DNA of 64,000 nucleotides from an uncultured Verrucomicrobiota bacterium (GTDB lineage: Bacteria > Verrucomicrobiota > Kiritimatiellia > CAIVKH01). Under the pieces are notes generated by a model, which was not told the origin of the DNA, ran no database searches, and saw only the letters and a list, made by a program, of their open reading frames with translations. Below are positions 80 to 43,663 of the stretch, piece after piece; the first letter of the stretch is position 1; each line of letters starts with the position of its first letter. The stretch is from the NCBI GenBank assembly GCA_937872895.1, contig CALMUP010000027.1:124001-188000 (forward strand). The letters run 5' to 3'. A program made the translations under genes and the position numbers.

Positions 80-955
80 ATGAGAACATCACGCATCAAG
101 GTCGATGATTCCGATACTTGGTATCATTGTTACAATCGAACCGCCGGCACGTCAAAGGACCGGCCCTTCCGCGACGCCGACAAGGAGCAGTTTGTCCGGA
201 TCCTTCACCGGGTGAGTCAGCTCTACGGAATCGGGATTATTGCCTATCAGGTGATGTCAAACCACTACCACTTGCTGGTTCACGCCCCGCGGGAGGTAAT
301 GAGTCCGGAAGACATGTGCCGCCGCTACAAGGTATTCCATCGGGATCGCAAGGATTTGAATCCGGATAGCGAGCTTTGCCGCTTATGGCAACAGCGGGCA
401 CGTGACATCAGTTGGTTCATGCGCCATCTCCAGCAGCTGTTTACCATGTGGTACAACCGGAGCCGTCCGCTTCGACGTCGTGGCTCGCTTTGGGCCGATC
501 GTTTCAAACACACGATTCTGGAAAGCGGATCGGCGGTATGGGCCTGTTGGAACTACATCGAAAACAACCCGGTCCGGGCAGGTATGGTTGAAAAAGCCGG
601 GGACTACCGGTTTTCCTCCTACGGAGTATGGCATCAATCCGGAAAACATCCTTTTGCCGATCAGGTAGCGATACGCATTTTGCCCATGCTCGGACTCAGA
701 AACCTGACCGATCTATTTTCCATGATGTCAGCCCTTCTTGACAAACAAGCCTCTTCTGGTGAGAGCCATACATCCGTCAACACGATTTCGCGGCGCATCC
801 GCTATTGGGTGGACGGACTGGTCATAGGGTCCGAACTATTTGTTCGCACGGTCATGTCCACTCATCATCCGCAGGCATCCTGTCGTAGGATCATGAACCG
901 AGCCACTGACGAGCCACCCCTTGCATGCTGGCGAAGACCGAGACCCGAACGCTAG
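80..955 (+). CDS. RAYT / REP-associated tyrosine transposase (Y1_Tnp, IS200-like fold)
   Basis: This 291-residue protein belongs to the Y1/HUH single-strand transposase family, in the chromosomal RAYT branch thought to mobilise REP palindromes. The HUH metal motif is visible as H62-Y-H64 inside NHYHLLVH, after a YHCYNR start typical of RAYTs. A probable catalytic tyrosine is Y125 in the helix before the conserved RRRGSLWADRFK block, followed by the ENNPVRAGMV motif. The length is normal for RAYTs and the frame is intact. An AAGGA ribosome-binding site lies five bases before the ATG. No IS200-type left and right ends are obvious, which fits a domesticated, non-self-transposing RAYT. Several REP-like palindromes elsewhere in the window are candidate substrates; that link is inference. 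Confidence 0.88.
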   Translation: MRTSRIKVDDSDTWYHCYNRTAGTSKDRPFRDADKEQFVRILHRVSQLYGIGIIAYQVMSNHYHLLVHAPREVMSPEDMCRRYKVFHRDRKDLNPDSELCRLWQQRARDISWFMRHLQQLFTMWYNRSRPLRRRGSLWADRFKHTILESGSAVWACWNYIENNPVRAGMVEKAGDYRFSSYGVWHQSGKHPFADQVAIRILPMLGLRNLTDLFSMMSALLDKQASSGESHTSVNTISRRIRYWVDGLVIGSELFVRTVMSTHHPQASCRRIMNRATDEPPLACWRRPRPER

Positions 956-41343: not shown

Positions 41344-41691
41344 TTATCCGGCGTCCGTCGCTCGTACCGCGCGATCCAAAAGCACATCCTCCAGGTTGCG
41401 ACGACCATCGAATACCGCCACCACATACACCGCCTGACCGGCCATGCGATAAACCATACGCCATGGAGCGATCACCAACTCTCGGTGCGTGACCAAACCG
41501 TGGACTTCCAATTCCGGGACGATGCGTCCCCGGTTCGGAAACTTTTCCAGGCTGGCGGCCGCGGCTTCAAATTGATGAAGCGCCCGAAGCGCGGCGCCAG
41601 GATCATGAACAGCAAGGTAATCCACAATGGCAAGAACATCACCCTCGGCAACGCGGGCGAACTCAACCGTATAGTTTCGGGGAACCGCCAC
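41344..41691 (-). CDS. ParE/RelE-superfamily toxin
   Basis: This 115-residue small basic protein belongs to the RelE/ParE fold: NYTVEFARVAEGDVLAIVDYLAVHDPGAALRALHQFEAAAASLEKFPNRGRIVPEL, then HRELVIAPWRMVYRMAGQAVYVVAVFDGRRNLEDVLLDR. The pattern of two N-terminal helices, FPNRGR and the final beta strands is typical of ParE-like toxins. The start is taken as a GTG at 41691, one base after the antitoxin stop. It is paired with a Phd/YefM antitoxin directly upstream, so this is a type II module; whether it acts on gyrase (ParE) or ribosomes (RelE) cannot be told. Confidence 0.85.
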   Translation of the reverse strand: MAVPRNYTVEFARVAEGDVLAIVDYLAVHDPGAALRALHQFEAAAASLEKFPNRGRIVPELEVHGLVTHRELVIAPWRMVYRMAGQAVYVVAVFDGRRNLEDVLLDRAVRATDAG

Positions 41692-41692
41692 G

Positions 41693-41974
41693 CTACACCC
41701 GCGGTGTCGACAGCTTTTTCTTCGCCCGGGCAAATACATCCGCGGCTTTCGCCGTATGACCAACCTGAATGTCCTTCTCCCCCTGGGCGACCAGCTTAAG
41801 CAATCCGATCGCCGCCTTCATTTGCTCATAACTTTCCGGATCTTGCAGCACACCCTTCGCCTCTCCGTTCTGGGTGATCACCACCGGCCGATGCGTCGTG
41901 TTAATCTGCAACAGCAAATCAGCGGCCTTGTTTTTCAAATACGTAACCGGGCGAATGTCATGGGCAAGATTCAT
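41693..41974 (-). CDS. Phd/YefM-family antitoxin
   Basis: This 93-residue protein has the Phd/YefM fold: NLAHDIRPVTYLKNKAADLLLQINTTHRPVVITQNGEAKGVLQDPESYEQMKAAIGLLKLV, with a flexible Lys-rich C-terminus that should wrap the toxin. The ATG at 41974 matches the family N-terminus. It precedes the toxin gene, the normal order, and an inverted repeat lies ten bases upstream. Confidence 0.88.
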   Translation of the reverse strand: MNLAHDIRPVTYLKNKAADLLLQINTTHRPVVITQNGEAKGVLQDPESYEQMKAAIGLLKLVAQGEKDIQVGHTAKAADVFARAKKKLSTPRV

Positions 41975-41984
41975 GGTCGGACTC

Positions 41985-42002
41985 CGTAATGACCGAATTA
42001 CG
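41985..42002 (-). promoter_or_regulatory. Candidate operator of the toxin-antitoxin operon
   Basis: A perfect 6-bp inverted repeat CGTAAT-N6-ATTACG lies 10 to 28 bases upstream of the antitoxin ATG. Phd/YefM antitoxins bind such palindromes to repress their own operon; the assignment here rests on position and symmetry only. Confidence 0.5.
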
Positions 42003-42190
42003 TACCATATTCGGACCCACCGAGGCAACATCACAGACGACACTTCTCATGCGTAGTTCCGTGGCGCAGCCACACCAACACCGCAGGCATCCGCTTCGAC
42101 AGGGCTCACGTACCACACGAAGGGATGGATCACCGAAAGCCCGGTTTAAACGCTTGAGGAATCGCCCATTTTCCCGATGATGGCAGACCG

Positions 42191-43432: not shown

Positions 43433-43663
43433 CGGATGATGTCTTGGTTTTATCGGCGAGCGAAGCGACGCCGATGCGTGACCACCAGGATTCTTCGGGT
43501 GGTTTCGCGGAGCGAAACCAGCGGAACGATGGTCGGATTTGCCCTGATTTCAAGGCGAAGCAGCCGCTGCTGGACTCCCGTCCGCGGCGGTTGCTTCAAC
43601 GCAGAAAGCGGGGTAAATCCGGGCGTCGTTCCGCGGCCTGAAGAATCCTGGTATCATCATCCG
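43433..43663. other. Large fold-back element / structured non-coding element between ppnP and ymdB
   Basis: This 231-base stretch folds into one long rod with two side hairpins. Paired arms are 43433-43441 with 43655-43663 (9 bp), 43484-43496 with 43640-43652 (13 bp), 43521-43529 with 43626-43634 (9 bp), 43534-43544 with 43611-43621 (11 bp, one G-U), 43548-43551 with 43604-43607, and a top stem 43557-43567 with 43584-43597 (11 bp, 3-base bulge). Side hairpins sit in the left arm only: 43452-43458 with 43469-43475, and 43500-43508 with 43512-43520. About 70 bp form in all. It is either a structured RNA or a fold-back/MITE-like insertion. A run of six T follows at 43691. The rest of the 354-base gap shows nothing else. 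Confidence 0.7.

Follow-up and report, generated by a model that had tools for sequence, protein, structure and literature searches.

The DNA analysed here (the window, 64,000 nucleotides) contains a 231-base fold-back, at positions 43433-43663, lying in the 354 bases that separate ppnP from ymdB; the genes identified around it with Pfam were lgt, ppnP and ymdB. The pairing arms that an initial annotation had described in this fold-back were each present, at or very near the places assigned to them and with their complementarity checked, as were the two hairpins reported for the left arm only (43452-43475 and 43500-43520; Table 1). Adjacent genes for a ParE-type toxin and a Phd/YefM-type antitoxin were also detected with Pfam upstream of lgt and ppnP (41344-42043, minus strand).

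Table 1. Coordinates of the fold-back repeat and its parts in the window.
Feature	Position	Strand	Remarks
Whole repeat unit	43433..43663	+	Ends GATGATG..GGTATCATC at 43435-43658 common to the source-genome copies; fold z -10.6
Outer stem, 5' arm CGGATGATG	43433..43441	+	100% complementary to 43655-43663
First side hairpin, left arm only	43446..43483	+	ATCGGCG 43452-43458 / CGCCGAT 43469-43475; found in source-genome copies
Second stem, 5' arm	43484..43499	+	Pairs with 43637-43652, 94% complementary; 7/15 modelled pairs doubly changed
Second side hairpin, hypervariable	43500..43520	+	TGGTTTCGC 43500-43508 / GCGAAACCA 43512-43520; arms complementary in copies
Third stem, 5' arm	43521..43551	+	Pairs with 43604-43634, 81% complementary, several G-U; wobbles conserved
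Apical core, covariance model R2 (class-wide conserved part)	43535..43620	+	R2 match
CAAGGCG, near-invariant, 5' side of apical internal loop	43551..43557	+	Near-invariant columns of alignments A1 and A3
Apical stem-loop, stem letters variable, stem pairs compensating	43558..43596	+	Conserved tip GCTGGACTCNNGTCCGC 43569-43585
CAACGC..G, near-invariant, 3' side of apical internal loop	43597..43609	+	Alignment columns
Third stem, 3' arm	43604..43634	+	Partner of 43521-43551
Second stem, 3' arm	43637..43652	+	Partner of 43484-43499
Outer stem, 3' arm CATCATCCG	43655..43663	+	100% complementary to 43433-43441

RNA folding of both strands against shuffled controls, as the annotation had proposed, yielded -163 kcal/mol for the plus strand of the element, compared with -102.7 +/- 5.7 for 200 dinucleotide shuffles (z = -10.6, 0/200), while the minus strand folded less well (z = -8.4). 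The folding of the window fold-back is thus far above chance level. A suggested switch between two folds, in which GCGACGC would pair with GCGTCGC next to the downstream T-run, found no comparative support: the pairing is possible in the window copy only, and neither half is kept in the other copies.

The source genome (G000; 3.87 Mb, 51 contigs) was searched for further copies, a check also called for by the annotation. Twelve full-length copies were found including that of the window, the remaining ones being 74-86% identical to it, together with a thirteenth that lacks the inner domain and forms a short perfect palindrome. All of them were located between genes, and the ends GATGATG..GGTATCATC were common to the 13 copies with slight variation. 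Internally deleted copies persist in the family (L013 and L243), and the dispersal of copies that have no transposase gene of their own is a trait shared with MITEs. On contig C17 (L010), a 341-bp tandem duplication with 99.7% identity (1501-1841 and 1926-2266) covers the repeat plus the beginning of the downstream gene, which we take to be a uracil-DNA glycosylase from its translation only. The first 20 bases at the 5' end differ between the two tandem repeats.

According to the annotation, a lack of compensatory changes would have pointed to a chance or decaying repeat. In the pairing alignment A1 (15 copies from three genomes, 65 consensus pairs), compensation was present well above the level of shuffles, with double-sided changes in 36/65 pairs. 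An independent count gave 97.9% of alignment cells paired, versus 81.6% when shuffled, and a covariation score of 0.463 versus 0.151 that was reached by none of 500 shuffles; the pairing signal was lost when partner columns were shifted by 1-3 positions. For the class-wide core described below, 26/31 pairs were doubly changed and the score was 0.712 versus 0.191 for shuffles (0/500). The second side hairpin, whose sequence is unlike in nearly all copies and whose length varies, retained its pairing (6/6 modelled pairs doubly changed, 96.6% of cells paired), and the position of the first one is occupied in genomes G004 and G001 by a hairpin of unrelated sequence. Across relatives, side hairpins recur in the 5' arm only. 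Both left-arm hairpins are regular features of the family, not accidental insertions in the window copy. The annotation had read the element either as an inverted duplication invaded by palindromes or as a multi-stem RNA: the multi-stem fold is indeed kept by compensation, and the side hairpins did not turn out to be accidentally inserted palindromes.

Imperfect pairs were strongly biased on the plus strand, with G-T versus A-C cells in ratios of 94:1 (A1) and 56:3 (the wider set A3), although many of these cells are co-inherited and the ratios are not a tally of independent events. A G-T cell read on the opposite strand becomes an A-C cell, so the bias suggests that it is the pairing of one particular strand on which selection acts. 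Judging from these alignments, the plus-strand fold appears to be what selection keeps, as RNA or as single-stranded DNA; the covariation supports a secondary structure of one strand, which both molecules fit alike. MITE and RNA gene had been presented in the annotation as mutually exclusive, whereas signs of both were found here, namely a mobile-type repeat plus a compensated fold with strand-specific G-U pairs.

R2, a covariance model that covers 86 apical positions and was built from 23 diverse copies, yielded a single match in the window (43535-43620, 86.1 bits, E = 4.8e-22). At E <= 1e-6 the core was detected in 53/346 genomes of the class, representing 37/121 genera, so that the covariance search recommended by the annotation did uncover a family in related genomes; elsewhere in the phylum, matches were far rarer and weaker. 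Under full scoring there were 12 copies in the source genome, 45 in a genome of the same genus, and 11, 19, 22, 36, 16, 27 and 37 in others, the overall range being 4-45 per genome with a wide sequence spread. The distribution across the class was patchy, and the core was absent from five of the seven other same-family genomes searched (G002, G003, G005, G006 and G007). Copies are alike inside a genome and their stems have no common sequence between genera, while the tip CTGGACTCNNGTCCGC and the internal-loop motifs CAAGGCG and CAACGC recur across genera as the stems are rewritten. The fold-back is a copy of an uncatalogued, probably mobile repeat, whose shape and tip, but not its stem sequences, are kept in at least 37 genera.

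Two further candidates were set aside. An extra hairpin 5' of the fold-back was rejected as a family trait, as it was found in G032 and G345 (mean z about -3.3) and not in G000 (mean z -0.4) or G332. A 22-mer pattern also had matches in named genomes; four of them (L018, L019, L024 and L025) were folded, lacked the structure and look like chance.

A search of Rfam 15, in which matches were accepted up to E <= 10 near the element and E <= 1 for its relatives, yielded only chance-level matches, none above the gathering score, the best one at the window copy having E = 0.38. A known RNA family was rejected at these permissive values for the window copy and its relatives. As far as Rfam 15 is concerned, the annotation was thus right in assigning the element to no familiar RNA class. 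The family was not found in plasmid, phage and viral collections, and no paper describing the repeat was found in the literature.

Movement was seen in genome G145, where the core lies centrally within an element of 393 bp bounded by the terminal inverted repeats CAGGGCAGACGCATCTT. Among its 29 units, counted with and without core, target duplications of 10 bp were perfect in 13 and matched at 8/10 positions or more in 18, compared with 0.7% among mismatched ends used as control, which shows that this carrier subfamily has transposed. Units without the core also bear target duplications, so the data from this genome show movement of the carrier and not the core as the mobile part. The core-less junctions are of two types, at the short direct repeats GCG and CGC, and an original empty site explains them no better than does the loss of a long palindrome by slippage. 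Short core-less versions (L227, L228, L230, L235, L236 and L238) were seen with at least two junction types and several perfect 10-bp duplications. In a second G145 subfamily the core is present in tandem arrays without the carrier termini, and at three G032 loci (L293, L294 and L295) the copies form inverted pairs that diverge from each other and enclose another hairpin; the core unit can thus be single, paired in tandem or inverted arrangement, or cargo.

The outcome of the search for target duplications proposed by the annotation was mixed, with 10-bp duplications around the G145 carrier, and neither consistent target duplications nor consistent or shared inverted repeats beyond the fold-back arms around the source-genome copies. 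For this reason, movement in the source genome is inferred from the dispersal of the copies, their amplification in particular lineages and the patchiness of their distribution. An inverted-repeat scan of G145 revealed pairs at most ~412 bp apart and no longer gene-bearing element, although contig breaks may hide one; nor did it reveal an autonomous relative with the same ends, as expected for a MITE, which assembly gaps could hide. An ISAs1-type mover, guessed from the 10-bp duplications, was rejected because no such transposase was detected in G145, G000, G144 or G075, and no transposase was found linked to any copy.

The account that we consider the best, and on balance probable, is that the element is a mobile palindromic repeat of the non-autonomous kind, functioning as a single strand in its folded form. 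Its unit would comprise two long pairing arms, one or two extra hairpins in the 5' arm only with fast sequence turnover, and an apical stem-loop whose loop and bulge letters are fixed. A transposase acting in trans would spread the copies, and selection would act on the folded plus strand, most likely RNA produced by read-through from neighbouring genes and possibly single-stranded DNA during replication. The apical motif would presumably be bound by a protein, which would be the reason why the fold is selected; both this binding of the tip and RNA, rather than single-stranded DNA, as the active molecule are what we infer. The copy between ppnP and ymdB would most likely be a neutral passenger, through which the transcript of this intergenic region gains a very stable hairpin. 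Overall, the data suggest a case of selfish DNA that relies on a folded molecule, either RNA or single-stranded DNA.

The strand-specific G-U wobbles, the near-invariant unpaired and loop letters in 37 genera with rewritten stems, and the regular architecture with its 5'-arm hairpins would also suit a trans-acting or cofactor small RNA family, for example one that partners a nuclease or some other protein supplied from elsewhere, with its genes carried and multiplied by mobile repeats. We regard this as unlikely in view of the 4-45 copies per genome with their wide sequence spread, the persistence of internally deleted ones, the absence from close relatives, the lack of an Rfam match and the lack of a linked protein: when the flanking reading frames of all loci were clustered in search of a recurrent partner, only the element itself and duplicated loci recurred, and no nuclease gene linked to the copies was found. 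HEARO or omega RNA and the IS200/IS605-associated RNAs are likewise structured RNAs spread by mobile DNA, with many orphan copies possible, but they differ from the present family, which has no Rfam match and no linked nuclease gene.

Slightly less likely still is an element of REP/REPIN type that a RAYT-like Y1 (HUH) transposase would move in the form of a single-stranded DNA hairpin. As in REPINs or BIMEs with their RAYT (PMC3116915, PMC3733652), we observed intergenic palindromes with compensatory stems, tandem and inverted pairs, and deletions leaving shorter palindromes; target duplications were not found in the source genome, and Y1 genes are numerous in all these genomes (14 domain matches in G000). 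Nevertheless, none of 70 Y1 loci (254,617 bases searched, i.e. 255 kb) had a core within about 1.5-2 kb, so mobilisation by Y1/RAYT was rejected, and the 10-bp target duplications of the G145 carriers are unexpected for Y1 transposition. When the ends of 13 copies were aligned, the GTAG/CGTC tetranucleotide was absent from the hairpin foot, its place being taken by an internal invariant tip, and the element, with side hairpins on one arm and ~230 nt in length, is far longer than single REPs (about 20-60 bp). A Y1 (IS200-like) transposase domain match was also noted near the start of the window (about 155-331, plus strand).

That the repeat is a cis-acting leader or attenuator RNA of downstream genes, ymdB included, seems highly improbable to us. 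With gene calls from a simple codon-usage caller, which makes orientations approximate, 12/14 cores counted in the source genome were on the strand of the next gene, usually 60-170 nt upstream of it, an arrangement that would also suit a 5'-leader RNA; in G075, however, the downstream gene was mostly antisense to the core, and in G145 the copies were mostly between divergent genes. This genome-dependent bias makes a single cis-regulatory role unlikely. The downstream genes in the source genome are unrelated and share no function, on which grounds, along with the varying orientation, a riboswitch-type leader was rejected; moreover, ymdB in G001 has no element and the switch letters are not conserved. 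No clean empty orthologous site at ymdB was found, as the upstream synteny is not preserved in G001, G003 and G004. In G004 (L064 / L123) a copy was observed ~460 bases upstream of ymdB and oriented like that of the window, though without preserved flanking synteny. Finally, a decaying, functionless inverted duplication, which could by itself give long perfect arms and agrees with the internally deleted copies, is scarcely credible given double changes that keep pairing far above shuffles and loop letters conserved across genera.

As a non-autonomous mobile repeat, the family can be filed as a variant among the structured mobile palindromes resembling MITEs and REPINs, which form a broad company of non-autonomous elements (PMC10969869, PMC3116915, PMC3733652). 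Like MITEs (reviewed in PMC10969869), the copies are short, non-coding, intergenic, multi-copy and palindromic with very stable predicted folds, and the G145 form has terminal inverted repeats and 10-bp target duplications. Unlike in MITEs, the conserved part is the central folded core and not the termini, neither inverted repeats nor target duplications are recognisable in the source-genome copies, the search for a parent insertion sequence found none, and the core is common to at least 37 genera with differing outer sequences. The family also resembles repeats of another kind in being a long imperfect intergenic palindrome that is foldable in transcripts. Such are the ERIC/NEMIS-type repeats, long imperfect intergenic palindromes of about 100-150 bp that can fold in transcripts. 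They are set apart by description, given the faster letter turnover with structure kept and the one-arm branching seen here, and neither E. coli-type plasmids nor Rfam yielded a sequence match.

For most small mobile repeats of bacteria, the ends are the defining part. In this family, the ends and almost all letters of the stems change from genus to genus, whereas the branched fold and the apical motif are fixed in at least 37. One can thus test directly if selection on a miniature mobile element has as its unit a folded RNA or a single-stranded DNA, along with the protein reading it. More tentatively, the family may possibly be a new class-wide structured RNA family with a protein-read apical motif (CAAGGCG / CTGGACTCNNGTCCGC / CAACGC) that persists as a mobile repeat; if so, the identity of a selfish element would lie in its RNA fold, and not in its termini or transposase. 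The covariance model can be used to annotate such repeats in this poorly known bacterial class. In G075 (L203-L214), the core was often preceded, at a distance of ~100-150 bases, by a member of another family of short palindromes, GGGGCGAGGTCGCCCCGG..CTCC and then an A-rich stretch.
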